From: a virus
DNA: 24,733 nucleotides
Virus record (IMG/VR): IMGVR_UViG_3300046804_002692
Location: 1-24,733 of that record
Reading direction: 5' to 3' (one strand)
Under the pieces are notes generated by a model. It had not been told where the DNA came from and made no database searches. It was given only the letters and a program-made list of their open reading frames with translations. Positions within the stretch are counted from its first letter, which is position 1, and every line of letters starts with the position of its first letter. The translations under genes and the position numbers were made by a program. This document shows positions 7,940-20,414 of the stretch, piece after piece.

Positions 7940-8377
7940 TTATCTCTTTAGGATAGAACGAACCATCCATGCTGTTTTCTTATGAGCAGCTAAACGATCT
8001 GCTGCATAGTTTGAAATTTGGTGTTCACGTGCTTCTTCAGATGCATCATACAAACCTTGATATAAAGTAATCATAGTTTGTGTATCAGCTTGAAGCTTTT
8101 GAAACATTTCCATTGGACCTGGGAAAGTTTCTTCGTCTTTGATTAGACTTTGTTGTGCGTATACTGTTAAAGAACCTGGTGCTTTTTCATCCAATTGACG
8201 GATAAATTCAGCTAGTGTATCAGTCTGAGCCCATAGGTCAGCATAAACATCGCCAAAGAAATCGTGATATTCTGGGAAATCAGCACCTTCAATGTTCCAA
8301 TGGAACATGTGTGTTTTTAGGTAAAGAGCAAAGTTAGAAGTTAGGACTTTGCGGAGTTGTTCAACTAGCTTATTCAT
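7940..8377 (-). CDS. Dps-like ferritin (DNA-protection / iron-storage protein)
   Basis: Dps proteins form 12-subunit shells that oxidise Fe(II) with peroxide and protect DNA. The motif LKTHMFHWNIEG (about 20-31) and the ligand set H26, H38, D53 and E57 have exactly the spacing of the inter-subunit ferroxidase ligands of E. coli Dps (H51, H63, D78, E82). The protein is 145 residues, within the family range, with all helices of a four-helix bundle apparently present. It lacks a long basic N-terminal tail, so DNA binding is uncertain. AAGGA precedes the ATG by about 7 bases. It is the first gene after a T4-type late promoter and is followed by gp13, so it should be made late with the virion proteins. 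Confidence 0.88.
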   Translation of the reverse strand: MNKLVEQLRKVLTSNFALYLKTHMFHWNIEGADFPEYHDFFGDVYADLWAQTDTLAEFIRQLDEKAPGSLTVYAQQSLIKDEETFPGPMEMFQKLQADTQTMITLYQGLYDASEEAREHQISNYAADRLAAHKKTAWMVRSILKR

Positions 8378-8411: not shown

Positions 8412-8419
8412 TATTTATA
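8412..8419 (-). promoter_or_regulatory. T4-type late promoter motif for Dps-gp13-gp14 unit
   Basis: The minus strand reads TATAAATA followed by G, an exact T4 late promoter element. By the T4 spacing, transcription would start near base 8405, leaving a leader of about 28 bases before the Dps ATG at 8377. It directly follows the terminator at 8424-8448 and shares a T with its T-tract, so it restarts transcription where the upstream unit ends. Confidence 0.75.
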
Positions 8420-8448
8420 AAAAAATGGGGATCATTAAGATCCCCATT
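8419..8448 (-). terminator. Rho-independent terminator after the outer-membrane protein gene
   Basis: A perfect 10-bp inverted repeat (8424-8433 with 8439-8448, GGGGATC core) encloses a five-base loop. On the minus strand it is followed by a run of T residues (complement of the A run 8419-8425). The T-run lies only on the minus-strand side, so it terminates the right-hand unit that ends with the gene at 8477-9340. Confidence 0.88.
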
Positions 8449-8476: not shown

Positions 8477-9340
8477 TTATTTAAAGTCATATGCAAATAT
8501 TAAAAAGCTTCTACTATCATAATAACCTTCGCTGCTAATTCTTGGCATATATTCAGCTGATAAACGAGCTCTATTGGTTATTTTATAATTCACCGCAGGC
8601 CCAGCATACACCTCTGTTAGATGTGTATCATAATCATACTTTCTTACATGAGAAGATAGCCCAACCATCAAGTTATCATTAATGACTTTACCGATACTAG
8701 CAGTAACTGCATACTCTTTTTCTTTTTCTTCAGCAGTTTTACCTCCTAGATTGGCTTCATAAATTAGATTAGCTGCCCAAATCCAATCAGTATTTCCAAT
8801 CCTATCACTTAATAATAGCTTAGGTTCAATACCTTGACGATCTTTAAACAATTTATGCTCAAAGTATAAAGTTGGATTGCCTGGAATTTTACCCCAGTCT
8901 GCTAATGCATATCTAATTTCCCAACTAAAACCTTTATTTGTAAAGGTTCTTTCTCCTTCTGCACCATCATAAACAGTATGATTATATAAGTCAAGCTCTA
9001 ATCTATTTCCAAGACCAAAAGCTAATTCATCGCGCATACGTGTTTGTACTGGTCCATCTCTACGGGCTCTAAAATCAAACCAGCGTTCATATTTTACTGA
9101 ATCCTCTGGTTGCATAACATAAGCTCTACTGGATGCAAACATCCTAGTAGTGGTCCATACAGGTTGCTTATAATCTCCAACTAAATCGAACTGAGTTGGA
9201 TATTTTTCAACTACTACTACTGGTGGAAGTTGATCCAGCTTTTCAGCTTGAACTTGTTCTGTCGGTGTTTCTAACTTACTCTGTGCTAGTGCCGAACACG
9301 CAAATAGCACAAGAGATATTACTGAAAATATCTTTTGCAT
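8477..9340 (-). CDS. Predicted outer-membrane beta-barrel protein with signal peptide
   Basis: The N-terminus is a clear Sec signal peptide: a short Lys-containing start, a hydrophobic core at about 4-16, and an Ala-Leu-Ala/Gln cleavage site after residue 19. C15 could in principle be a poor lipobox (LFAC). The mature part has many alternating-hydrophobic strands with aromatic girdles. The chain ends in a strand finishing Tyr-Asp-Phe-Lys, resembling the terminal strand of outer-membrane barrels. The length (287 residues) would suit a 10-14-strand barrel. The shape recalls small transport-type barrels of the phenol-degradation MetA type, but I cannot assign a family. AAAGGG lies 8 bases upstream of the ATG. 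It is the last gene before the terminator and follows the DUF401-like transporter. Confidence 0.75.
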   Translation of the reverse strand: MQKIFSVISLVLFACSALAQSKLETPTEQVQAEKLDQLPPVVVVEKYPTQFDLVGDYKQPVWTTTRMFASSRAYVMQPEDSVKYERWFDFRARRDGPVQTRMRDELAFGLGNRLELDLYNHTVYDGAEGERTFTNKGFSWEIRYALADWGKIPGNPTLYFEHKLFKDRQGIEPKLLLSDRIGNTDWIWAANLIYEANLGGKTAEEKEKEYAVTASIGKVINDNLMVGLSSHVRKYDYDTHLTEVYAGPAVNYKITNRARLSAEYMPRISSEGYYDSRSFLIFAYDFK

Positions 9341-9403: not shown

Positions 9404-10444
9404 TTATAATAGGAATGTAATAACTCCAGCGGTCGCTAAAAGTAAACCACCCCATGTACCTAGTGCTTTATAATATGTTGATAGTGGAGTATTAAAATAC
9501 TTGTGACCCACCATCACGCACTTATGTGTTGGACTTAATAAGTATCCTGTAAAGTCTACTGCAAAGAACCATAAGAAGTACTCAATGCCAAAGACTTGAG
9601 CCATTAATACAGCGATTGCGACAAACTTACCACTACTACCCATTAAGAAACTTGCTATAAAACCAATAGCTGAGATGATTAGCATACCAACAAAAGTTGC
9701 TGGATCTAATCCAACTCCTTTAATCAATGCTTCAAATTCTGAGCCATGTGATTTCATATAGTTACCTAATATGATAACTGAACCAACCATCAATAGTACG
9801 TCCCATCGAATGTAGTTTAATAACTTCTTAAAGTTCCATTCTTGGGTAATTAACATATAATATAAAGTTAAGAAACCAAAACAACCGATCATCCAGTCTT
9901 TGTTATAGATGTAAAGGCCAATGGCAATAAACATCGGTATAACATTTCGTAAAACTGCTGATAGTTTAAAGTTTCCTGGAGCGATCGCAATTTGTTCTTC
10001 ATGTACCTGATACCAAATATACCATGCAATGAATGCCAAACTGACAACCAAGAGAGGCGCGATAAAGCCTAACCATGCTGTATAAGAGAGACCAAATGCA
10101 GCGATCGGTAAGATAACTGTCTTCTCTATCGGCGACCACATATAATAGTGATGCGTCGCTAGATAGTCAACAATACCTAACTTTTCTCTGCCGTGACCTT
10201 CTTTGGGTGCCACTGTATCAAGTAAACCTGCAGATACAGTAACTCTACCCTCAATTGGTAAAATACCACCAATCGCGCTTAGGAGTACAACAACAAACTT
10301 ATTACTTCTGAATGTGTTTCTTACATATGCGAAAGCTGGGGCGAAGAGCTGATGCTCTTTTGCTAGTCCAGCAGTGATCATGATGAAGAATATCATCCAG
10401 AGGTATGTGATGTCTTTTAACAAGACGTTTAGGACGAAGTCCAT
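9404..10444 (-). CDS. DUF401-like polytopic membrane protein (probable transporter)
   Basis: The 346-residue protein is almost wholly hydrophobic, with roughly ten helices. It resembles the DUF401 family, putative permeases of the ion-transporter (ArsB/NhaD-like) fold. The matching landmarks are the first-half re-entrant-type segment GGILPIEGRVTVSAG (59-73), then VDYLATHHYYMWSP (92-105). In the second half they are ASFLMGSSGKF (264-274) and the C-terminal DFTGYLLSPTHKCVMVGHKY (297-316), like the LSPxHxC...YF signature of the family. GAGG lies about 8 bases upstream of the ATG. It lies between a small four-helix protein and an outer-membrane barrel, which suggests a transport or envelope-modifying module. 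The substrate is unknown, and the family call comes from memory of its motifs. Confidence 0.72.
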   Translation of the reverse strand: MDFVLNVLLKDITYLWMIFFIMITAGLAKEHQLFAPAFAYVRNTFRSNKFVVVLLSAIGGILPIEGRVTVSAGLLDTVAPKEGHGREKLGIVDYLATHHYYMWSPIEKTVILPIAAFGLSYTAWLGFIAPLLVVSLAFIAWYIWYQVHEEQIAIAPGNFKLSAVLRNVIPMFIAIGLYIYNKDWMIGCFGFLTLYYMLITQEWNFKKLLNYIRWDVLLMVGSVIILGNYMKSHGSEFEALIKGVGLDPATFVGMLIISAIGFIASFLMGSSGKFVAIAVLMAQVFGIEYFLWFFAVDFTGYLLSPTHKCVMVGHKYFNTPLSTYYKALGTWGGLLLATAGVITFLL

Positions 10445-10454
10445 AGTTTACCTC

Positions 10455-10805
10455 TTAAACTAAGTTTTTAATAATGACCATCACGCTAATCCAAGTCCAA
10501 AGTGTATTGAAAGCCACAAGTGTTGGCAATAACTTTTTATTACTAGCCCAAATCAATGTAAGACTTGTAGCGAGTGTTAAAAAATAAAGCCACCAGATTT
10601 GGATTCCAAATATTAAACCTGGGACGATGATGATCGCCTTTGTGCCCCATGACAGGGCTTCTACTATGTTATAGTTAGTCCAATACTCTCGTTTGAACCA
10701 CATCGCATAGCAGTCTTTTATAGCCTGAAAACCAACATGTTTATAGACTACAAAAACTAAAATGCCTGTAATCATACAGGCAACTACTGTCTGATATATT
10801 GTCAT
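10455..10805 (-). CDS. Small four-helix membrane protein
   Basis: Not recognised. This 116-residue protein has about four hydrophobic segments (around 5-22, 53-72, 73-89 and 94-114) with a charged loop at about 28-45. It has no signal peptide or catalytic motif. Its ATG overlaps the upstream stop by one base (TAATG), and the DUF401-like transporter follows after ten bases, so it is probably a partner or accessory subunit of that transporter. That pairing rests on gene order only. Confidence 0.72.
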   Translation of the reverse strand: MTIYQTVVACMITGILVFVVYKHVGFQAIKDCYAMWFKREYWTNYNIVEALSWGTKAIIIVPGLIFGIQIWWLYFLTLATSLTLIWASNKKLLPTLVAFNTLWTWISVMVIIKNLV

Positions 10806-11581
10806 TATTTATACCACCTATGGAAAGGGCACTTCGATTCATTGTGTTTATCATACGCAGACTTCATGGCAGTACGCTTAAAGGTGAAAGTAAAGTTTTT
10901 AAGAAATTGTTTTTTCTTTAACCAACTTTCATCTTTTTTGCTTTTATCTCTACATTCAAATGTGTATTTATTCTCAGTGATTGGCACTAAATATGCTAGT
11001 GGTGTACCCGCTTTAATTGTATATTCACCGTTAAGCTTATGCCAATATAGTTGACAATTAATTGCAGAAGATATACTAGGGTCCAATATTCCAATAGATT
11101 GTGTGAAAGTAAAGTCATTTGAATACGGAACTGGTAACATCATAAACTTAATACCCTTTGGAGCCATAATATGCCAAGGAGTATTGATCTTAATAATAGA
11201 TCTTAGTGTATTTGGAGGGATTGGTATATGTTTAGCTACTCCATTAAATGAATGTTCTTGGACGATAGGACTATCTTCTGCTTTATCCATCAATTCAATT
11301 AAACTAATATTAGGTAAAGTCCATTTATAATAGTTTGGATCACCATTAGTTTCAATCTTTATATCACACCAAGCTGTTACAAAAAAACCAGTCTTGTATA
11401 ACTCAAATATTCCTGGACATCTATACGCATGTGCAAATGTACCGCCATTTGCAGCATTTAATTCTTTAATATAATCATTTCTAGATTCACTGAACCAAGC
11501 CTGTTGATAATCTTTAGCTTCTAATATAGGAGTAGAATCTGCAACTCCATCTATGCTAGAAAAAAATTCAATCTTCATCAT
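10805..11581 (-). CDS. DUF6065-like protein of unknown function
   Basis: This 258-residue protein has no catalytic motif I recognise. Its layout resembles the phage/bacterial DUF6065 family: an early acidic segment, a central KINTPWHIMAPKGIKFMMLP stretch (a beta-strand pair around an APKG turn), a GILDPSI segment, a KAGTPLAYLVPIT strand, and a Cys/His end HNESKCPFHRW. Sequences of this type often lie near oxygenases and halogenases, which fits this position, but no activity is established. The assignment is from memory of the family pattern. The start at 11581 overlaps the upstream stop as ATGA, and the second codon is also ATG. The stop overlaps the next gene as TAATG, so it is tightly embedded in the tailoring-enzyme cluster. 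Confidence 0.75.
   Translation of the reverse strand: MMKIEFFSSIDGVADSTPILEAKDYQQAWFSESRNDYIKELNAANGGTFAHAYRCPGIFELYKTGFFVTAWCDIKIETNGDPNYYKWTLPNISLIELMDKAEDSPIVQEHSFNGVAKHIPIPPNTLRSIIKINTPWHIMAPKGIKFMMLPVPYSNDFTFTQSIGILDPSISSAINCQLYWHKLNGEYTIKAGTPLAYLVPITENKYTFECRDKSKKDESWLKKKQFLKNFTFTFKRTAMKSAYDKHNESKCPFHRWYK
10806..10813 (-). promoter_or_regulatory. TATAAATA match abutting the small membrane protein start
   Basis: The minus strand has an exact TATAAATA in the last codons of the upstream gene, directly before the ATG at 10805. A start at the usual distance would fall inside the small membrane protein gene, so it could serve only the transporter and outer-membrane protein genes. The octamer also encodes part of the upstream C-terminus, so it may be coincidental. 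Confidence 0.3.
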
Positions 11582-12069
11582 TTATAGTCAATCACTAATA
11601 TACTTCGTTTTTGTTTGCATGGTCGACTAGAATGCATCAACCAACCTGGAATATATATCCAATCTCCAGGTGTCAATGTTTTTACTTCAAATCCTCCAGT
11701 TGGTCTTGTATCATAAAGAAGTAAATCTCCGTTGCCAACCAAATTGATTATCATAGTACCAATACTACTTCTATGAATATGAGGATCTTGATATCCACCA
11801 ATCTCGTAGTCTATTACCCAACTACTTTTATTTTTTAAATGAAAAGTATCATCTATTTGTGAAATTATATTTTTATGCCATTCGGGTTGAATATCATTAT
11901 TTTTAAATGCATATTGCCAACCATTATTTGTTGTGCTTGTATCGCTAATATCTTCTTCTAATAATTTTTGAATCTCTAACCACTTTAAATAATCTTGTGT
12001 GGTTTTATCATCAAGCTTTATTTTGCCAAAAAATATTTCAACAGGAAATAGTATTTCACTTTGGTTCAT
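11578..12069 (-). CDS. Cupin-fold Fe(II)/2-oxoglutarate oxygenase-like protein (second copy)
   Basis: The 163-residue protein ends in a double-stranded beta-helix. Visible candidate metal ligands are H97 and H99 in DPHIHRSS and the distal H146 in IPGWLMHSSRP. R149 or R155 is a candidate 2-oxoglutarate-binding residue. The ligand pattern HxH...H, and the spacing GDWIYIPGWLMH, parallel the neighbouring 202-residue protein, so the two are probably distant paralogues. A plain cupin or a hydroxylase acting on a protein or small molecule is possible, and the substrate is unknown. I chose the ATG at 12069, which overlaps the upstream gene by 14 bases. An in-frame ATG at 12099 would extend it by ten residues with a larger overlap. 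Neither has a good Shine-Dalgarno. The stop is coupled to the next gene by ATGA. Confidence 0.75.
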   Translation of the reverse strand: MNQSEILFPVEIFFGKIKLDDKTTQDYLKWLEIQKLLEEDISDTSTTNNGWQYAFKNNDIQPEWHKNIISQIDDTFHLKNKSSWVIDYEIGGYQDPHIHRSSIGTMIINLVGNGDLLLYDTRPTGGFEVKTLTPGDWIYIPGWLMHSSRPCKQKRSILVIDYK

Positions 12070-12664
12070 AAATAAATGGTACATCAATATCAAAGACAAT
12101 GTTAATACGTTGACGATCTGCCATATTAGGTTCTACCTCATGAGGAATCCACGAAGGCCATAAGACCAAATCTCCATCTTTAGGAAGGAAATAAAAGTCT
12201 CTACTATATGGAGAAAAATCGTTACAATCATTTAACACATTTGCAGGATTTGATAATATTAATCTTCCAGTATCTGTGGCTTGCAAATAATAAACACAAG
12301 AAAATATAGATCCTTTATGCGCATGATAAACATTTCTTGCATATTTTTCATTAACATTGCACCAACTACCTATAGAAATTTTATTTTCTTCTGATGGTAA
12401 TCTTATCCTACTTCCAGGTTGATTACCATAATATGTAAATGCATCATTCATAATTATAGAAACAGCATGATTTAACCATTCACAGTCTTTTACTGGATAT
12501 GAATATCTCCAGCAACCTTCATTATTAGTCAACTCATTGATATCTCTCGCTCCTGAAGCTTTTAATGCTAAAATCCTATCAATCAATTCTTGCCTTTGTT
12601 CAGGCGTGCCTACATTTGCATAACTAAATAAATCAGCTCTAAATAGTGTTACCGGTTCTCTCAT
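12056..12664 (-). CDS. 2OG-Fe(II) oxygenase-like protein (PF13759-type)
   Basis: The sequence matches the pattern of the 2OG-Fe(II) oxygenase family PF13759, common in marine T4-like phages. It has an early W/N-rich region, then NVYHAHKGSIFSCVYYLQ with H114 and H116, a LILSNPANVL turn, and GDLVLWPSWIPHEV with H175. An ending with R184/R186 (RQRINIVFDI) would contact the cosubstrate. Such enzymes use Fe(II), O2 and 2-oxoglutarate to hydroxylate or otherwise oxidise a substrate, and the target here is unknown. The length (202 residues) is normal for the family. The ATG at 12664 overlaps the halogenase end by 26 bases and the next oxygenase-like gene overlaps its end. That links it to halogenation as a probable tailoring pathway. 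Confidence 0.85.
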   Translation of the reverse strand: MREPVTLFRADLFSYANVGTPEQRQELIDRILALKASGARDINELTNNEGCWRYSYPVKDCEWLNHAVSIIMNDAFTYYGNQPGSRIRLPSEENKISIGSWCNVNEKYARNVYHAHKGSIFSCVYYLQATDTGRLILSNPANVLNDCNDFSPYSRDFYFLPKDGDLVLWPSWIPHEVEPNMADRQRINIVFDIDVPFIYEPK

Positions 12665-14168
12665 ACCAATCCTTCAAAAATTCATAATGATTTGGGAAAT
12701 ATTCTATAGCATTATCTATCTCATCAGTTTTTGACTTAATATAGTATTCAGCGTATTTCATCTCTTCTTCTGATAACTTCGGCTTCTCTATATTATCATA
12801 TACTCCATTAGCATGCAACATACTAAACCAATGACCACTATGGAAACCTGAAGTTTTATCATCTATATAAAACTTTCTATGAAGTGTAGGGTAGAAGTGA
12901 CTAAACATTTCTTGAATATATTGTGGTGCGTTTTCTATTTTTTGGTTTCTAATCTCTTGCCAGAAAGGAGTATCATCTCTATCACTATAATGGTAATGGG
13001 CCCAAACAAATGCAATTATTTCGACTACCATATTAATGTATGCAGCATTAAATGCATTCATTAGATTATCATTCCAAATACCGCTGTGATGATTTAACCC
13101 ATTAGTTAGTGCTTCAACGATCTTAGTGGTGAATGTAATACCAGTTGCTTCTAATGGTTCTACGAATCCAGCAGATAACCCAACTGCAATAACATTTTTA
13201 TGTGCTACTGCTTCAGAAGCTCCACACCTCATTTTTAAATGACGAGCTTTAGCATTATACTCACCAATAGAATCTCTTAATTCTTTTTCTGCATCTTCAG
13301 CTGAAATATGTTTTGATGAATACACATAACCGTTACCAATTTGTTTGAATGTTGGTATTGTCCATCTCCAACCAGAAGTCATAGTAGTTGCTTTGGTATA
13401 TGGATGACATTCTTCTTGTGGATCTTTATACTGTGTAGGCATAGCAACAGCACTATCGCATGGAAGAATATCAGATATATCAATAAATGGAACGCCTAAT
13501 TCTTTATTAATCAACTTTGCTTCAAATCCGGTACAATCAATAAAAAGATCAGCTGTGTGTTTTCTTCCCTGTTCATCTAGCAAATATTCAATGCCTTCAT
13601 CATTAGATTTTATCTCTGTAATCTTAGTATCGAAATATATAATTCTATCTTTAATTAGATCATGAATAGTATCTAATATATCTAATGCTGAGAAGTGCAC
13701 AGCACCCCAATCTTTAAAGTCTCTAAGCGACATAGAATGATCGTAACCACCTAGCTTAGGACTTTTATTTGCCATAGCTAATCTATACGCAGGTTGCCAT
13801 TTTACCCACTCTTCATTAGGTTTATGCATAAAATAATCATGTGCATATAAACCTGGAGCCATGATATGATTTTCTATAAAATCATTATCTACGAAGTATG
13901 GCTCTTTATTCCAACCAGATAACAATACACCATACTTAAATGCAGCTTGTGCGGGTTTCATCCATTCTTTTGGTTCTAATCCAGCATCATGTAAAAATCT
14001 TGAAGTAAATGGTTGAGTTCCTTCACCAACTCCAATCGGGCCAAGCGCTTTACTTTCTATTAAAGTAATCTTACACGGAAAGTTTAAACGATTTGTCATG
14101 TAAGCTGCTGTTAACCAACCGCTGGTACCACCACCAAATATAACAATATTTTTTATCTTCTTAATCAT
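12639..14168 (-). CDS. Flavin-dependent halogenase (tryptophan-halogenase family, VirX1-like)
   Basis: The enzyme should use FADH2, O2 and halide to form hypohalous acid, which passes to a catalytic lysine and halogenates an electron-rich aromatic substrate. The FAD-binding GGGTSGW lies at residues 12-18. GVGEGTQP is at 46-53, and the catalytic lysine is K78 in QAAFK, aligned with K79 of PrnA. The halogenase-specific WxWxIP motif is W267-R-W269-T-I271-P272. FVEPLEATG (335-343) aligns with the PrnA FVEPLESTG segment; E340 is kept, but the following Ser is Ala341. At 509 residues it is full length. Related viral enzymes are known, notably VirX1 of cyanophage Syn10, which was shown to iodinate diverse substrates. 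It is coupled by ATGA to the upstream U32/methyltransferase fusion and overlaps the oxygenase downstream. No flavin reductase is seen here, so FADH2 would come from the host. Confidence 0.95.
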   Translation of the reverse strand: MIKKIKNIVIFGGGTSGWLTAAYMTNRLNFPCKITLIESKALGPIGVGEGTQPFTSRFLHDAGLEPKEWMKPAQAAFKYGVLLSGWNKEPYFVDNDFIENHIMAPGLYAHDYFMHKPNEEWVKWQPAYRLAMANKSPKLGGYDHSMSLRDFKDWGAVHFSALDILDTIHDLIKDRIIYFDTKITEIKSNDEGIEYLLDEQGRKHTADLFIDCTGFEAKLINKELGVPFIDISDILPCDSAVAMPTQYKDPQEECHPYTKATTMTSGWRWTIPTFKQIGNGYVYSSKHISAEDAEKELRDSIGEYNAKARHLKMRCGASEAVAHKNVIAVGLSAGFVEPLEATGITFTTKIVEALTNGLNHHSGIWNDNLMNAFNAAYINMVVEIIAFVWAHYHYSDRDDTPFWQEIRNQKIENAPQYIQEMFSHFYPTLHRKFYIDDKTSGFHSGHWFSMLHANGVYDNIEKPKLSEEEMKYAEYYIKSKTDEIDNAIEYFPNHYEFLKDWYERTGNTI

Positions 14169-15847
14169 TTTTTAATCACCAAAATATATAATCCATTCCA
14201 CCACTCTCTAGGATTTTCTTCAGAATTCAATATCATCTTTTCATAGATTACTTTAGCTTCCACTTCATTTAGTCCATCTCTAACGCCTTCAATAACCGTT
14301 TCCCAATTTGCATCATCAAATATTAAGATGGCTTCATCAGCTAATGCTGGCCAATAATATTTAATAGCATCACTCGTAGATTTAGCATCGTGCGGACCAT
14401 CATACATGAACATGTCAACCTTTGAATCAATTTCTTGTAAATTAATATTTAACATGTCTTCTCTAAATATTTTTACGTCTGATTCTTGTACGTATGGTGT
14501 AATATTATTAATAAATGTATCATAATCGTTGGCTTCAGTTTGAAAGCTATCTGTTGCCGGTTGAATTTGTTGTTCCCATTTATCGATAAAATAAGCCTTA
14601 ATTGGGTTTTTATATAACACCGCAGCAGCAGTTGCACCTAAATAGGAACCTACTTCTAAGTATGAACCGCACTTAGAAGCTAAACTATTCAATAAAGTTT
14701 GTACTCGTGAACTAGTTAAACCACTAATGTTAATATTCACTTTTGGAATACCGCTCTTTGCAATACAATCTACTACATGTTTTGTCATGTCAGTATAATC
14801 ATATTCATCTTTCTTTTCTTCGATCTTGTCACAATACTGACATTCCCAACAATCGAATTTACAATTACGAATCTTGTCACGCCAAATATTAATTGGTTTT
14901 CCGCTAAGTTGTGCTTTATCAATGAAATCTTGGAAATTGTCATCTAACACTTCTTGATTAGTAACATAACGTTCAACTTTTCTCATAGTCTCTGCTAATC
15001 GTTGAATACTTTCGCGACCATGCATTTTAAATATATCGATGCCTAAATCTAAGTATTCATCCCAATCTGCTTTCCATGGAGAGAAGTTTGCAGTCTTTAA
15101 ATAAACCGCAGGGTCTTCTACATCCCATTTTGGACAACTAACTCTACTAATAGCAGAATTAAAATATGATGGATCTTTTTCACCGCGTGTATTATTATAT
15201 TCGAAGTGTTCATCCATCATATGACACTCACCTAAACAGCCTTCATTAGCTAGCAAACTGTAGTGAATGTCTTTACCTAAATTTACTTTAATCCATTTCT
15301 TAGCTTCTTGCAATCTAAGTAATGCATCTCTATCACGCATTAGATCGCGATCTAAATTAATATAATCAAAACCTTCTTTAGCCAAAGCAACGACTTCTGC
15401 TGGTCGTCTTACATTTCTTAGAATAGTATTTTTAACATATAATTCTGGGAATGCAGCTTTGATTTGACCAGTTGCCATCCAATGTGTATGAGGGATGGTT
15501 GCTGTTCTAATACCTGCATCATATAACGGTTTAAAGTTGACAATAAAAGTATCTAAATTTGTTTGTGTTGGAGGTACTTGGATATTATTAAATGTCGCAG
15601 AAGCTTTAATCCCAAGATGTTTTTGTATGTTTAATGCGGTCTCGATAAGATTAATCCTATCTTGATTAAACATGATGACGTCACCCATTGCATCTTGGTT
15701 GAACGGGTTTATTCTAGATGTGAAATATACATCGGCGATCCAGTCTTTATATTCTGAAAGCCAATAATAAAATGCCGTAAACTGTTCTTGTGAAAGTTTA
15801 GGATTGATTGGAATACTGAAGATTTTTTTTGGAGTCACTTTACTCAT
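14165..15847 (-). CDS. Fusion of U32-peptidase-like domain with a class I SAM methyltransferase
   Basis: Residues of about 8-330 resemble the TIM-barrel U32 family (RlhA, UbiU/V, TrhP relatives). Landmarks are TATIPHTHW, FPELYVKNTIL, GFDYINLDRDLMRD (159-172) and NEGCLGEC (201-208). C204, C208 and C238 are plausible iron-sulphur or metal ligands. A Cys cluster, CxxxCxxCxxC (C329, C333, C336, C339), follows as a possible second metal site. Residues of about 378-560 form a class I methyltransferase of the Methyltransf_24 type, with the SAM-binding EVGSYLGATA at 398-407, YDGPHDA at 482-488 and IFDDANW at 509-515. The fusion is unusual. Modern U32 enzymes modify RNA or hydroxylate quinone precursors, so this may be an RNA-, peptide- or metabolite-modifying enzyme. 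Its stop overlaps the halogenase ATG. There is no clear Shine-Dalgarno. Confidence 0.78.
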   Translation of the reverse strand: MSKVTPKKIFSIPINPKLSQEQFTAFYYWLSEYKDWIADVYFTSRINPFNQDAMGDVIMFNQDRINLIETALNIQKHLGIKASATFNNIQVPPTQTNLDTFIVNFKPLYDAGIRTATIPHTHWMATGQIKAAFPELYVKNTILRNVRRPAEVVALAKEGFDYINLDRDLMRDRDALLRLQEAKKWIKVNLGKDIHYSLLANEGCLGECHMMDEHFEYNNTRGEKDPSYFNSAISRVSCPKWDVEDPAVYLKTANFSPWKADWDEYLDLGIDIFKMHGRESIQRLAETMRKVERYVTNQEVLDDNFQDFIDKAQLSGKPINIWRDKIRNCKFDCWECQYCDKIEEKKDEYDYTDMTKHVVDCIAKSGIPKVNINISGLTSSRVQTLLNSLASKCGSYLEVGSYLGATAAAVLYKNPIKAYFIDKWEQQIQPATDSFQTEANDYDTFINNITPYVQESDVKIFREDMLNINLQEIDSKVDMFMYDGPHDAKSTSDAIKYYWPALADEAILIFDDANWETVIEGVRDGLNEVEAKVIYEKMILNSEENPREWWNGLYILVIKK

Positions 15848-15865
15848 CCTATAAAATTATTACAA

Positions 15866-16582
15866 CTAAATGTTAACTAATACTGGTTCACCAATTTCCC
15901 ATTTTAGTTCAAATACTTCTGGACTAATAGTATCTATAGTGGGTCCAGGATCAAGCATTTCCGGAGTAAAATGTGAAACTTCTGTTTTTTTAGATGGAAC
16001 CGATAGATCCCATTTTGCACCAGGTAAAGAAGTTCCAAGTTTATCTTTTACTACTAATAGCGGATAATTAAAATGATTGTGCATAATTACATGACAATCA
16101 TAATTTGTTTTGCATTCTTGTATGGCATTTTTTATGCCATTAATTTTTTTATTATAACGAACTTTATTACCTTCAGAAAGCGAATTATAATGTTTTTGTA
16201 AATAATCTAATAAGATTATCTTAATAAATTCAACAGAACTTTTTTCATCTTCTTCTGTAATAGTATATGTAAACTTATCTCTTGGATTTAATTCTATATT
16301 TGCAGGAATATTAAGAGAATCTTTTACCCATTGAAATGTAAATTGTTCTACCTTCACATTCATGGTATTGCGTTGATTTAAATCTATATGTGAAAATATA
16401 GAACCTCTAGCAATGTTTTCGGGTATTTGAATTATAACACGTTGTAATTCACTAGGAAAAACAGTGATGTCATCTTCAATTTGATATACATCATAAATCC
16501 AAAAACTAGTCAATGGTCTATTATAATATTGTTTTAATAGACCATTTTCATATTCACTTTTTTCAAAGGTTATAAATTTCAT
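15866..16582 (-). CDS. Protein of unknown function in the tailoring cluster
   Basis: Not recognised. Counting from the ATG at 16582, it is 238 residues. The N-terminal part is beta-rich (FWIYDVYQIEDDITVFP, then IPENIARGSIFSHIDLN). A mid-region of amphipathic helices follows (FIKIILLDYLQKHYNSLSE), with a Cys/His-containing segment CKTNYDCHVIMHNHF. The end is Pro-rich and beta-like. The mixed HxxH-like HVIMHNH could bind a metal but is not a known signature. I preferred the ATG at 16582 because the ATG at 16618 would overlap the upstream gene by 56 bases. Neither start has a good Shine-Dalgarno. It lies just upstream of the U32/methyltransferase fusion and is among the most AT-rich stretches in the window. 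Confidence 0.7.
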   Translation of the reverse strand: MKFITFEKSEYENGLLKQYYNRPLTSFWIYDVYQIEDDITVFPSELQRVIIQIPENIARGSIFSHIDLNQRNTMNVKVEQFTFQWVKDSLNIPANIELNPRDKFTYTITEEDEKSSVEFIKIILLDYLQKHYNSLSEGNKVRYNKKINGIKNAIQECKTNYDCHVIMHNHFNYPLLVVKDKLGTSLPGAKWDLSVPSKKTEVSHFTPEMLDPGPTIDTISPEVFELKWEIGEPVLVNI

Positions 16583-17477
16583 TGAATTCTTTTGGCAAAG
16601 TTGGAGGAGGAGGTTCATTAGAATTTTTATTATCTAAATTTAACCTAGCGCTTGCTGCCTTTATAAGTTCTAAGTCTGCATTGATAGCATTATTAATAAG
16701 TTCCGGGTTTAATGAACCAATATATTGCATCTTCCCATCATTAGTAAGTTGTAATGATTTTGCTGCTTCTTGACGTAATGTAGTTTGTTGTTGTTCTACG
16801 GCTAAATTAACTGTATGCGCAAGAGCAAGAGTTTCTTCTCGCTGGTCAGCGCCAAGTTGCATGATTGCATCTAAATTACCAGAGCCAATGCGTCCATACG
16901 CACATAGATCCATAGCTGCTTGTCTAGCTAAACGAACTGTCCAATATTCTTTTTCATACAATTCTTCTTCTTCTGTTCCTAGTACAGAAGTAAGAGGACG
17001 ACCGTCTGGAGTTTTTCCATGAGGACTATTTAAAAACTCTTCAACTAATTCTAAGAAAAATTGACGCTCAATATAAAGATCTTTTACTCTAGCTTGAGTT
17101 GATGATACACCATTTGTCTTACGTTTAACTTCCAGATCTAGCAATTCTTTAATTAGAGGATCAGTTTCTTCATCGCGATCTCGAATAGCAATCTTTAATT
17201 CTATCTCTACTTTTTTAAGTTCATATTCTTGTGATTCTATAGAATCTTCACGCGCTCTTAACTCTAAAAGATATTGACGAATTATGTGAAATGGTGTATA
17301 TTCAGCCTGTCCCACAAACCACTTTAGCTTAAACTTTGGAGTACTCCAATAGTTATTATAAGAAAACTCTATTAATTCTTGGGATTTTTTAGGGATTAAA
17401 GAAACATCAGTTGAAAGCTTCTTTTTAGGGAAGTGATTTTCGTACTTATATTTTCCATATTCTACTACATCAGTCAT
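16563..17477 (-). CDS. Coiled-coil protein of unknown function
   Basis: Not recognised. The 304-residue protein has a basic N-terminal segment and an aromatic motif YWSTPKFKLKWFVGQAEYTP (43-62). A charged helical segment, likely coiled coil, runs over about 68-120. A helical middle contains YGRIGSGNLDAIMQLGADQR, a long Gln/Ala-rich helix follows, and the tail ends in PPPPTLPKEF. There is no signal peptide, membrane helix or catalytic motif. AAAGG lies about 10 bases upstream of the ATG. It is the first gene after the fibre paralogues, so it might be a fibre chaperone or virion accessory protein, or it could belong with the tailoring genes that overlap its 3' end. The sequence does not decide. 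Confidence 0.78.
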   Translation of the reverse strand: MTDVVEYGKYKYENHFPKKKLSTDVSLIPKKSQELIEFSYNNYWSTPKFKLKWFVGQAEYTPFHIIRQYLLELRAREDSIESQEYELKKVEIELKIAIRDRDEETDPLIKELLDLEVKRKTNGVSSTQARVKDLYIERQFFLELVEEFLNSPHGKTPDGRPLTSVLGTEEEELYEKEYWTVRLARQAAMDLCAYGRIGSGNLDAIMQLGADQREETLALAHTVNLAVEQQQTTLRQEAAKSLQLTNDGKMQYIGSLNPELINNAINADLELIKAASARLNLDNKNSNEPPPPTLPKEFNEIYNL

Positions 17478-17517: not shown

Positions 17518-17546
17518 ATATATTAATCTCTCCAGAAACAATGTCC
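17518..17546. repeat. 29-base direct repeat at the end of fibre paralogue 2
   Basis: These 29 bases are identical to 18772-18800. They cover the last codons (Cys-Phe-Trp-Arg-Asp and stop) of the fibre paralogue and a few bases beyond the stop. Confidence 0.9.
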
Positions 17547-18773
17547 TGAGGAAGCTCCGGCATGTCCTTGAATAGTTGTGCCTAGTTGTGCACCGCTATC
17601 TGTAGCATACGTGTGTCTACCACATCTGTTATTTTGTCCTACACCTGCAGAGTCATCATATTGTCCAAGCATATAACCGTTATCTTGAGACATACCATAG
17701 TTTTCTTCACCACAGTTACCCCACATTTTACTAACTGTACTATATGATTCATTAGTGATATTAGTTTTTCTATAGTTATATCCACCAGCGTAAGAACCTT
17801 CATTACCACCGTAACCAAATCCAGTTTTAGCAGACATACCCTTTTGTTGACCGTGAGCACCGCCGTACATGATACCTGTTGCTATTCCTTCTGTAGAGAA
17901 ATCTATTTTCTGAGAAAAGTTAGTACTTGTTCCTGCCCACCAAATACCTTTATTTTCACCAGATATTCCGGAAGCATGACCACCATTACCGCTGCCTAAT
18001 GTAGCAAATGCATTTGTACTTGCAGTAAACCTAAATGTATTACTTATACCGTCACCAGTTGTAAATGATCTATTACGATCTGGAGCAAATACAGTACCAG
18101 TGTTTGCACAAGCATAACCTGGAGCACCAACTCCGTTTACCTTTGTCTCAGTTCTCAGTTGAAATGTAGTTGTGCTGTTACCATTCCAGATGTGACCCCT
18201 ATTATCGTCACACATACCAGATTTGTAATGATAGTTGTCAATTAAACCATCACCTAAGTTAGTACATGTCTCAGTAGATCTTGGGAAACGGTTAACGTTA
18301 GACCATAATGATGAATCTTTATATCCACCAGCCATGTATAATGTAGTAATGATCTGACGATATAGCCAAGGAACTGATAATGTTACGCTATATGATCGAT
18401 CAGAAGTGGTCTTTGCGCCAGGAGAATTATCTGATGCACGAACAGTGAAGCTATAAACTGTTCCATCAGTATTGATACCAGAAGCTGAATACGCTCCACT
18501 GATTTGACCGGTTGAAGAATTTAGTGTGAAACCTGGAGGTAGAGAACCTGAAACAATAGAATATTGAACACCAGTATGCCATGGATCAAAGACTTGACGT
18601 TGACCAGAAATTGAATTTGATGTTGTATTGGCAATCGTACTACCAGTACCACTGACTGTTGCTGTGCCTAAAGATCCAGCTGCTGCAGATGAAGCAGTAT
18701 CAGCGATCGCACCAGGATGATATCCTCCTCGACCGCTATTTCTAGTATTTCCGCTATTAGTGCCGTATGCCAT
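17523..18773 (-). CDS. Fibre/adhesin-like virion protein, paralogue 2 (Ig-like domain)
   Basis: This 416-residue protein is a shorter paralogue of the gene directly upstream. It has a Gly/Ser-rich start with RGGYHPG (15-21) and an Ig-like He_PIG-type domain at about 50-132, containing GSLPPGFTLNSSTGQISG. A conserved body begins SVPWLYRQIITTLYMAGGY (133-151), with paired Cys residues (TETCTNLGDG, KSGMC, GYACANTG). It ends with GHAGASSGHCFWRD. Relative to its partner it lacks about 130 residues after the N-terminal motif. The body probably forms a receptor- or glycan-binding tip on the particle surface. The Shine-Dalgarno for this gene (GGAGAG) is made from the last codons of the upstream paralogue. 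Confidence 0.8.
   Translation of the reverse strand: MAYGTNSGNTRNSGRGGYHPGAIADTASSAAAGSLGTATVSGTGSTIANTTSNSISGQRQVFDPWHTGVQYSIVSGSLPPGFTLNSSTGQISGAYSASGINTDGTVYSFTVRASDNSPGAKTTSDRSYSVTLSVPWLYRQIITTLYMAGGYKDSSLWSNVNRFPRSTETCTNLGDGLIDNYHYKSGMCDDNRGHIWNGNSTTTFQLRTETKVNGVGAPGYACANTGTVFAPDRNRSFTTGDGISNTFRFTASTNAFATLGSGNGGHASGISGENKGIWWAGTSTNFSQKIDFSTEGIATGIMYGGAHGQQKGMSAKTGFGYGGNEGSYAGGYNYRKTNITNESYSTVSKMWGNCGEENYGMSQDNGYMLGQYDDSAGVGQNNRCGRHTYATDSGAQLGTTIQGHAGASSGHCFWRD
18500..18548. repeat. 49-base identical tract shared by the two fibre paralogues (copy in paralogue 2)
   Basis: Base-for-base identical with 19754-19802, in the Ig-like domain (codons for SLPPGFTLNSSTGQI). Flanking sequence is clearly diverged at synonymous positions. 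Confidence 0.92.
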
Positions 18774-18800
18774 ATATTAATCTCTCCAGAAACAATGTCC
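18772..18800. repeat. 29-base direct repeat at the fibre paralogue junction
   Basis: Partner of 17518-17546. It spans the end of paralogue 1, the three-base gap and two bases of the start codon of paralogue 2, so the duplication included the intergenic junction. Confidence 0.9.
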
Positions 18801-20414
18801 GGATGAAGCTCCGCCATGTCCTTGTATACTTGTAAAACCAGAAGCTATGGCATCTGTCGCATATATCACTCTACCACAATTATTGTTTTGTGCGCCGTTG
18901 TATTCGCCAAGTATATAACCACGATCTTGTGACATAGCATAATTTTCTTCGCCGCAATTACTTAAAGCTTTAGTAATTGTGCCATAAGTTTCATTGGTAA
19001 TATTAATCTTGCGCCAGTTATATCCGCCGTTGTATGTACCTTCATTGCCACCATAACCATAGCCTGTCTTAGCTGATAAACCTTTTTGTTGGCCATGAGC
19101 GCCACCTGCCATACTGATAACTGCTTGTGCTTCTGTGGAGAAGTTGATAGATCTATTAGCATCACCCCAGAAAATACCTTTATTTTCTCCAGATACTTGA
19201 CATGCATGACCGCCTTGCCCACCACCCAAAGTAGCATAAGCTTCAGTAGATGCTGTAAATCTAAAACAGTTACTAACACCTTCGCCAACTGTAAATGATC
19301 TATTACGATCTGGAGCAAACGCCGATGCAGTATTACTACACGTATATCCAGGAGCTCCTGGATTTGTTCCTTTAGTTTCAGTTCTTAGATTAAATTTAGA
19401 AGTAGCATTTAAATTTACACCCGCTCCTCCACCAGCACCAAACATGTAACCACCATTATCGCTACACATACCAGACTTATAATTATAGTTATCAATCAAT
19501 CCATCACCTAAGTTAGTACATGTTTCTGTTGATCTCGGGAATCTGTTGACGTTTGACCATGCAACAGAATCTTTATATCCACCAGCCATATACATGGTCG
19601 TGATGATTTGTCGATATAACCAAGGCACACTTAGAGTAACTGTGTAACTTCTATCAGAGGTCGATTTTGCCCCAGGAGCATTATCAGTTGCACGAACAGT
19701 AAATGAATATACTTGTCCATCAGTATTCACGCCTGATGCTGTATATGTACCAGTGATTTGACCGGTTGAAGAATTTAGTGTGAAACCTGGAGGTAGAGAA
19801 CCAGCTGAGATTGAATATGTTATAGCACCCTGGAAAAATGGATCATAAGTACCACGTTGACCAGAGATACGAGTAGAACTTGTGTTAGCAGTAGTATCGC
19901 CTGTGCCATTAACTACTGTTGTGCCTAATGTACCGCTTACTTCTGAAACAGGATCATCAAATGACCAGATATACATCGCAGAGTTATTATCATATGTGTA
20001 CGTGCCAGCAGTAAAATCTCTATAAAAAACTGAAACGTTTGTTTCACCGGAAATATAACTTTTTCCAGTCTCATACGATGTCCAACCAGTAGTATCAACA
20101 GCATTCCAAGATGGAACTCTTAACATGTATACTCTACATGGTTTAGTAATAGTAAATGTTCCGCTATCAGTTTCATTGATAACAGTAGATGTTATTTTAC
20201 CAACGCCAGTTAAATAAGCTGGTAAATTCTGATATTGAGACCAAATATTCTGAGCCGCATCAATTCTAAGTTGCAATCCATTAATCGGAGATTGCAACTC
20301 AGTACCAGTGCTCACAGAGACTGGATAATTGATATCAATTGGTCCTACTCCTGGGTGATATGCTCCACGGCCAGTTTTGGTATTACTCCCACCAATGGTT
20401 CCACTAAAGGCCAT
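18777..20414 (-). CDS. Fibre/adhesin-like virion protein, paralogue 1 (Ig-like domain)
   Basis: The 545-residue protein shares the N-terminal GRGAYHPG (15-22) with its downstream paralogue. It has an extra domain at about 28-158, beta-rich with several aromatic residues (YMLRVPSWNAVDTTGW, VFYRDFTAGTYTYDNN). The Ig-like He_PIG domain follows at about 180-262 (GSLPPGFTLNSSTGQITG), then the same Cys-containing body and GHGGASSGHCFWRD terminus. Most of the sequence-conserved body lies C-terminal, as expected for an adhesive tip. AAGGA lies about 8 bases upstream of the ATG. It follows the 1155-residue virion protein with a short gap, so both are probably expressed together and may join in one fibre. 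Roles are inferred from composition and context. Confidence 0.82.
   Translation of the reverse strand: MAFSGTIGGSNTKTGRGAYHPGVGPIDINYPVSVSTGTELQSPINGLQLRIDAAQNIWSQYQNLPAYLTGVGKITSTVINETDSGTFTITKPCRVYMLRVPSWNAVDTTGWTSYETGKSYISGETNVSVFYRDFTAGTYTYDNNSAMYIWSFDDPVSEVSGTLGTTVVNGTGDTTANTSSTRISGQRGTYDPFFQGAITYSISAGSLPPGFTLNSSTGQITGTYTASGVNTDGQVYSFTVRATDNAPGAKSTSDRSYTVTLSVPWLYRQIITTMYMAGGYKDSVAWSNVNRFPRSTETCTNLGDGLIDNYNYKSGMCSDNGGYMFGAGGGAGVNLNATSKFNLRTETKGTNPGAPGYTCSNTASAFAPDRNRSFTVGEGVSNCFRFTASTEAYATLGGGQGGHACQVSGENKGIFWGDANRSINFSTEAQAVISMAGGAHGQQKGLSAKTGYGYGGNEGTYNGGYNWRKINITNETYGTITKALSNCGEENYAMSQDRGYILGEYNGAQNNNCGRVIYATDAIASGFTSIQGHGGASSGHCFWRD
19754..19802. repeat. 49-base identical tract shared by the two fibre paralogues (copy in paralogue 1)
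   Basis: Partner of 18500-18548. A further 30-base identity links 18060-18089 with 19290-19319, in the APDRNRSFT coding segment. Confidence 0.92.

Follow-up and report, generated by a model that had tools for sequence, protein, structure and literature searches.

What is modified by a marine phage that encodes, in a single coupled gene run, a halogenase, two Fe(II)/2-oxoglutarate (2OG) oxygenases, one of them putative, and an apparent methyltransferase fusion? This question is raised by IMG/VR record IMGVR_UViG_3300046804_002692, a fragment of a T4-like marine myovirus whose 24,733 bases are called the window here. The answer preferred here, which is put forward tentatively, is that the run is a late tailoring cassette, carried by a clade of uncultured marine phages and acting on a late product of the phage, most likely the adjacent fibre proteins. 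This target is suggested by late timing, linkage to fibre genes and repeated assembly with two halogenase clades. The genes of the run and the fibre genes preceding it are as follows (aa, amino acids).

17523..20414, minus: two tandem paralogous fibre genes (phrog_1417 family), candidate substrates, directly upstream of the cassette
16563..17477, minus: 304-aa protein, first cassette gene and fibre-module member; phrog_1409; related to P-HM2 PHM2_100, T4-like GC 353
15866..16618, minus: 250-aa protein (238 aa if started at ATG 16582), family unassigned, clade-only
14165..15847, minus: 560-aa fusion of a TIM-barrel-like N-terminus with seven invariant Cys (U32-like, weak) and a predicted class I O-methyltransferase C-terminus
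12639..14168, minus: flavin-dependent halogenase (PF04820)
12056..12664, minus: Fe(II)/2OG oxygenase 1; 2OG-FeII_Oxy_5 (PF13759); HxH...H...R intact
11578..12099, minus: putative Fe(II)/2OG oxygenase 2, cupin-like; phrog_81; HxH...H...RS intact; start at TTG 12099 or ATG 12069
10805..11581, minus: gene 12, predicted dUTPase-fold protein (formerly "DUF6065-like"); phrog_7084; neighbours 2OG oxygenases and halogenases
10455..10805, minus: 116-aa membrane protein, TAATG-coupled to gene 12
9404..10444, minus: DUF401-family permease (PF04165), 3' end of the run; adjoins the fusion gene in other phages too

Coupling, conservation and expression of the run

Eight consecutive minus-strand open reading frames (ORFs) extend from 17477 to 10455, with ends that mostly overlap. 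The 304-aa ORF, ending at 16563, overlaps the start of the next ORF at either 16618 (250 aa) or 16582 (238 aa), and a gap of 18 nucleotides (nt) separates the 250-aa ORF from the fusion gene (15866/15847). The fusion and halogenase genes share a 4-nt ATGA overlap (14165-14168), and the halogenase and oxygenase 1 genes overlap by 26 nt (12639-12664). The two oxygenase genes overlap by 14-44 nt, depending on which of two possible starts of oxygenase 2 is used. Oxygenase 2 and gene 12 are joined by ATGA (11578-11581), and gene 12 and the membrane protein gene by TAATG (10805). These re-read ORFs and junctions bear out the coupled eight-gene run reported at this place in a preliminary description of the window. 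All eight genes are present, but the run goes on, past the end given there, into the DUF401 permease gene. The AT-rich block of that description was also recovered, with a G+C content of 31-34% at 11-17 kb and 35-41% outside.

Eleven contigs with 84-96% identity, found by halogenase search, were treated as close relatives. As far as contig ends permit, the order fibre, 304-aa, 250-aa, fusion, halogenase, oxygenase 1, oxygenase 2, gene 12, membrane protein and DUF401 is kept in 11/11 of them. Most of the junction overlaps are repeated in the relatives, at nearly equal overlap lengths. In comparison with seven relatives, the nonsynonymous substitution rate (dN) is far below the synonymous rate (dS) for every gene of the run, with dN/dS mostly 0.03-0.3 at synonymous sites that are partly saturated. 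Every cassette gene is under purifying selection. Since the order is kept in all 11 relatives and dN/dS is well below 1, the conservation of the locus exceeds chance. Swaps and losses among the relatives are confined to a neighbouring gene of outer-membrane type (8477-9340, minus), which has a signal-peptide-like start. It marks a local swap site: some relatives have it, L001, L002 and L009 carry about 1.9 kb of other DNA in its place, and L003, L006 and L007 lack it.

T4 late promoters have the sequence TATAAATA, and NATAAATA is used in cyanophages (PMC2984593). In the close relatives, the sole intergenic TATAAATA lies just past a strong terminator and ahead of the ferritin/gp13 unit, and the same pair is found in the window at 8448-8412.

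8424..8448, minus: predicted intrinsic terminator ending the fibre/cassette unit; 10-bp stem and T-run; conserved in relatives
8412..8419, minus: late promoter motif of T4 type, TATAAATA, with the start codon of the ferritin/gp13 unit 42 nt further on; the single intergenic site in relatives

No TATAAATA was found within the fibre-cassette stretch of the close relatives, and nothing inside the unit reads as a strong late promoter. At the fibre/304-aa junction, NATAAATA is present in 6/10 close relatives, and the window has ATATATAG there. The window also has one TATAAATA across the junction of gene 12 with the membrane protein gene, at a distance of 8 nt from the start codon. Sigma-70-like promoters occur in the region at chance level. 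Read most simply, these signals point to late transcription of the cassette, together with the fibre genes or shortly after them, which would end at the terminator.

Linkage to fibre genes among marine phages

About 150 further viral loci were obtained by gene 12 and fusion-gene searches and scanned with profiles. Four arrangements were seen among them.

Group I (the window's type): fibre, 304-aa, (250-aa), fusion, (oxygenase), halogenase, oxygenase, gene 12, often with DUF401
Group II: the group I order without the halogenase; several run straight into gp13
Group III (cyanophage type): halogenase, (halogenase), gene 12, oxygenases, without the fusion; gp13 is next in several
Group IV: gene 12 in other phages

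Within 3 kb of the fusion gene lies a fibre gene in 76/79 tests and a 304-aa homologue in 80/82, and the 304-aa gene adjoins fibre genes in 79/80. Fibre genes are upstream in all 43 halogenase-positive loci with upstream DNA available (43/43). The preliminary description had placed fibres directly upstream of the run, and the unit is indeed flanked by fibre genes.

Among 75 non-redundant fusion loci with sufficient downstream DNA, a halogenase is present in 48 and absent from 27. Where it is present, the next recognised gene encodes a 2OG oxygenase in 45/48 loci, and gene 12 is found in 41/48. The 56 loci retrieved via the fusion gene alone were counted separately, which avoids selection on gene 12; a halogenase was detected in 42 of these, and gene 12 as well in 35 of the 42. 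Homologues of gene 12 were found in 14 phage records, including Syn10, the source of VirX1, and in each of them (14/14) a halogenase gene comes immediately before gene 12. The fusion gene itself was found in 123 cyanophage records; in the inspected ones it adjoins a 304-aa-like gene and a fibre gene, with no halogenase. The 250-aa gene, which gave no match among 50,697 phage records, is local to the window's clade.

In 34 group I loci, pairwise gene distances for the fibre, 304-aa, fusion, halogenase, oxygenase and gene 12 products are correlated (r 0.70-0.92), and for every gene pair 0/500 permutations reached the observed value. These correlations reflect joint inheritance and by themselves are no proof of joint function. 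The search for the same gene order in marine phage genomes, which the preliminary description had proposed as a check, thus returned ordered co-occurrence across many divergent viruses. Its idea of a single pathway is supported in that the genes are coupled, co-inherited and under purifying selection; it does not hold as an indivisible set, given fusion loci without a halogenase, a clade-local 250-aa gene and gene 12 without a nearby halogenase.

The slot between the fibre genes and gp13 might also be a cargo hotspot that gathers independently useful oxygenases and halogenases, so that neighbouring genes have no common substrate. Such a hotspot is suggested by the very variable content of the slot in cyanophages (2OG oxygenases and further annotated genes in differing combinations), by the 27/75 fusion loci without a halogenase and by the freely swapped outer-membrane gene next to the run. 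Independent cargo would, however, not be expected to show the fixed order, overlapping starts and strong co-inheritance of the fusion-linked clade, nor a dUTPase-fold gene that is found again and again beside an oxygenase or halogenase gene in phages with no other relationship. This explanation is considered quite unlikely.

The cultured cyanophages P-HM2, S-CAM4 and P-RSM1 share with the window the order fibre gene, 304-aa homologue, fusion gene (T4-like GC 351-354), and in P-HM2 and S-CAM4 this module is placed in front of gp13. It differs from the window in that no halogenase or dUTPase-fold gene was recognised in it and in that its fusion protein is 42-43% identical to that of the window. 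Because this trio occurs without a halogenase, the 304-aa and fusion genes belong to a fibre module that is older than the inserted part with the halogenase, oxygenases and gene 12. The halogenase is an optional part of the fibre-linked run.

A tree of 125 phage halogenases (quick method, midpoint root) places the window protein in a fusion-linked clade of 33 sequences (SH-aLRT 100), and a long branch lies between this clade and that of Syn9/VirX1, which is linked to gene 12. Halogenase genes of both clades lie behind fibre or fibre-assembly genes, together with the dUTPase-fold gene and 2OG oxygenases. Since the two clades are deeply split, the same partner genes accompany at least two old halogenase clades. 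Syn9, S-RIM44, S-CREM1, P-TIM40 and Sf-FR1 encode another halogenase, followed by gene 12 and at least one 2OG oxygenase, behind fibre, fibre-assembly or collagen-like genes. The Syn10 halogenase VirX1 (PDB 6QGM) and the Syn9 gp41-gp54 block resemble the window in having a phage flavin-dependent halogenase followed by a dUTPase-fold gene (syn9 gp43) and several 2OG oxygenases, and in their position behind tail-fibre and fibre-assembly genes. They differ in that long, strongly supported branches separate the halogenase clades, the window protein is about 28% identical to the syn9/Syn10 protein, and the TIM-barrel/O-methyltransferase fusion was not found in the Syn9 stretch.

Oxygenases accompany other phage halogenases as well. 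In HTVC008M- and P-SSM2-type loci, a 2OG oxygenase lies within 1.5 kb of the halogenase in 36/56 cases, compared with 1/15 for a gp14 control. Gene 12 also stands beside 2OG oxygenases in viral loci without a nearby halogenase. In six fusion-less loci, chosen by eye and therefore illustrative, a PF13640 or PF13759 oxygenase adjoins gene 12 or is one gene off. Three loci (L109, L111 and L113) carry two halogenases of separate old clades, one by the fusion gene and one near gene 12.

Properties of the encoded enzymes

The halogenase, oxygenase and methyltransferase labels of the preliminary description are backed by PF04820, PF13759 and PF13578, respectively, and that of oxygenase 2 by phrog_81 only. 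The halogenase gives a full-length match to PF04820 (E 3.2e-94; 316.8 bits, cut-off 21). Across 14 diverse phage halogenases, GGGTSG, GWRWTIP, K78 and E340 vary little or not at all. Lys78 and Glu340 of the window protein correspond to PrnA K79 and E346, and the GWxWxIP motif is kept. The best full-length PDB matches are tryptophan (Trp) 5-halogenases (PyrH and relatives; 2WET, 8FOV), which share the flavin site and the catalytic Lys/Glu with the window protein. The two differ at the PyrH segment F451-E452-T-Y454, which we take to bind free Trp by way of E452 and Y454; it aligns to F-H-S-G in the window protein, with H and G in place of E452 and Y454. The sampled fusion-linked clade has F-x-x-x at this segment. 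Free Trp is a doubtful substrate because the whole sampled clade lacks the E and Y of PyrH.

Known flavin-dependent halogenases use small aromatics, and VirX1 accepts many small molecules as substrates (PMC8407142). It is possible, though on the unlikely side, that the cassette is a small-molecule pathway, in which an aromatic metabolite of the host, or one made by the phage (for signalling, as a toxin or as an antibiotic-like compound), would be halogenated, hydroxylated and methylated, with transport by the DUF401 permease and the membrane protein. Antibiotic protection has been proposed by earlier authors (PMC2984593, PMC9964418). The DUF401 permease gene is coupled to the run, and in S-H25 and metaG-MbCM1 it is again found in linkage with the fusion gene. 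A small-molecule role is opposed by the loss of the presumed free-Trp-binding motif, by a run without a carrier protein, ligase or other scaffold-building gene, and by the persistent tie of the unit to fibre genes across divergent lineages.

Oxygenase 1 matches PF13759 (E 1.8e-17) and two solved structures of uncharacterised proteins, and its residues H114, H116, H175 and R186 are invariant. The sole family match of oxygenase 2 is phrog_81 (E 4.6e-9), with cupin models below threshold; its HxH...H...RS motif is invariant in 8 sequences.

The predicted model of the gene 12 protein is confident (predicted local distance difference test, pLDDT, 90.5). Its listed PDB matches are all dUTPases (Z 9.4-10.4, about 115 residues, root-mean-square deviation mostly 2.5-3.2), and on this model the protein adopts the dUTPase (beta-clip) fold. 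The catalytic motifs of dUTPases include motif II (RSG) and motif V, which is glycine-rich and C-terminal. The gene 12 protein resembles the family in fold and in a conserved GxLDP-type motif III; it differs in having no motif II RSG, in its C-terminus and in an identity of 11-21%. In an alignment of 44 sequences, RSG is missing from the stretch between W136 and G164, and the C-terminus lacks a glycine-rich motif; the protein is, to judge from these motifs, probably not a dUTPase. The earlier DUF6065-like label could not be sustained: PF19541 matches neither the window protein nor 48 relatives (none of the 49 at E 0.1), and the dUTPase fold fits better. Comparison with bacterial DUF6065 gave a weak signal by hhalign (27.3; at most 23.8 in 60 shuffles), and by hmmsearch DUF6065 ranked 1 of 2001 but at E 0.41. 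Many loci (L039-L046, L131, L134, L135, L137 and others) carry two gene 12 copies, in tandem or about 0.4 kb apart, of which the second diverges more from the window protein than the first.

The C-terminus of the fusion protein matches the methyltransferase family PF13578 (E 1.2e-9), and residues 367-560 give fold matches to O-methyltransferases (Z 15-17); by family and predicted fold, this domain is assigned as a class I O-methyltransferase. In profile comparison with the PDB, the fusion family matches TrmR/YrrM alone (E 0.007), and TrmR also matches by fold (Z 15-16). The N-terminal barrel has seven invariant Cys (204, 208, 238, 329, 333, 336 and 339) with the spacing CX3CX29C plus CX3CX2CX2C. 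The iron-sulphur motif of U32 oxidases, CX6CX15CX3C (PMC11574389), is absent from the fusion N-terminus, where the spacing of the invariant Cys differs, and PF01136 (U32) gave no match up to E 10. In one hhalign comparison the N-terminus is collinear with U32 proteins (33.2; shuffled maximum 23.1; E 0.0015), which is suggestive only. A firm peptidase U32 label was dropped, there being no Pfam match and no such Cys motif, and "U32-like, weak" was retained. The U32/methyltransferase fusion of the preliminary description therefore stands in its methyltransferase part and is weak in its U32 part. The whole-fusion fold search says little on the barrel because the methyltransferase domain filled the match list, and the Cys-rich segment 203-253 has a pLDDT below 50.

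In Bacillus subtilis, trmR, trhP1 and trhP2 share one operon (PMC6599085). Two domain types matching TrhP (U32) and TrmR, encoded there in one operon, appear to be fused here; the fusion differs in lacking the U32-oxidase Cys motif, and the similarity of its N-terminal domain is weak. The TrmR match and this operon make hydroxylation followed by O-methylation a sensible guess for the fusion. On the same grounds RNA or nucleotide modification may be considered: a joined TrhP (U32, 5-hydroxyuridine) and TrmR would give a 5-methoxyuridine-like wobble base, the dUTPase-fold protein would handle nucleotides, and the oxygenases and halogenase would modify the same or other bases. The TrmR matches, the collinear N-terminus and the nucleotide binding of the dUTPase fold agree with this explanation. 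It leaves the fibre linkage unexplained, O-methyltransferases for many substrates match the fusion equally well, and the U32-oxidase motif and the RSG motif of the dUTPase fold are both missing. RNA or nucleotide modification is regarded as quite improbable.

Fibres as a candidate late product

Under the preferred reading of a late tailoring cassette, the enzyme set probably decorates something made late in infection, and the fibres themselves are perhaps the decorated product. The cassette products would act together late in infection. The halogenase would run on reduced flavin adenine dinucleotide (FADH2) from the host, the Fe(II)/2OG oxygenases would carry out hydroxylation, and the fusion protein would add O-methyl groups besides hydroxylating (or binding). 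The role of the dUTPase-fold protein would be to bind the substrate or present it to the oxygenases. Fibre side chains would be halogenated, hydroxylated or methylated before assembly, and such marks could tune receptor fit or protect the fibre. The complete form of this proposal, in which a dedicated late cassette halogenates, hydroxylates and O-methylates the phage's own tail fibres with a catalytically altered dUTPase-fold protein as substrate-presenting partner, is somewhat unlikely. We know of no earlier halogenation of a virion protein; if true, the proposal would describe the first, and VirX1-type viral halogenases would gain a natural substrate. Phage virion proteins, including a tail fibre, can bear post-translational methylation (PMC13288928), which favours the fibre reading, as do the gene order kept in 11/11 close relatives, co-inheritance, purifying selection and the missing E452/Y454 motif.

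Several observations weigh against fibres as the target. The raw count of TATAAATA is near chance for such AT-rich DNA, so only the position and conservation of the late promoter are telling. Halogenase genes of the HTVC008M type lie between terS and terL, away from fibre genes. The permease and membrane protein at the end of the run suit a small-molecule role better, and the fusion resembles a tRNA hydroxylase/methyltransferase pair. The fibres are an unproven candidate substrate. Between phages with and without the halogenase, fibre genes differ at aromatic positions, a comparison confounded by descent. The fibre paralogues at 17523-20414 have repeated TET-type segments and a common glycine-rich SSG end.

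VirX1, the cyanophage 2OG oxygenases and the fibre module genes are already known. Such enzymes have been treated as metabolic genes, with functions said to be unstudied (PMC9602691, PMC3037559, PMC9964418). The assembly appears to be undescribed: in the literature searched, which left most subscription journals outside its scope, neither the cassette nor its gene order, its dUTPase-fold partner or its link to fibres was found described, and nothing relevant to hydroxylation or halogenation of phage fibres came up. Viral halogenases and many marine-phage 2OG oxygenases are without known natural substrates, and the linkage ties both to fibres and to one dUTPase-fold partner. This linkage spans deeply separate halogenase clades and makes the substrate question directly testable on fibres.

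The remaining genes of the window include T4-like markers, namely the terminase subunits, tail sheath stabiliser, head closure Hc2 (gp14) and head-tail adaptor Ad2 (gp13). The terminase is 67% identical to that of phage C48C1 and 45-47% identical to cyanophage and pelagiphage proteins; the cassette is not annotated in the fetched regions of the C48C1 record (Kyanoviridae). A Dps/ferritin-like gene (PF00210, E 7.5e-22; 7940-8377, minus) precedes gp13, opens the next late unit and is retained in the close relatives.

One contig (L105; NZ_RMVE01000006.1, 188,235 bp) was considered as a Bacteroidota locus with a halogenase and gene 12 and was rejected. It is 98.1% identical to cyanophage P-TIM40 over the 16.7 kb tested and is therefore uninformative about bacterial hosts; it sits in a Nonlabens xiamenensis assembly, probably as contamination of the bacterial genome record. 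In two loci (L178 and L181), the fusion gene and gene 12 are inverted as a pair relative to the fibre and gp13 genes. In a group II locus (L048:12001-13319), the stretch between DUF401 and gp13 encodes a heme oxygenase together with a ferredoxin-dependent bilin reductase.

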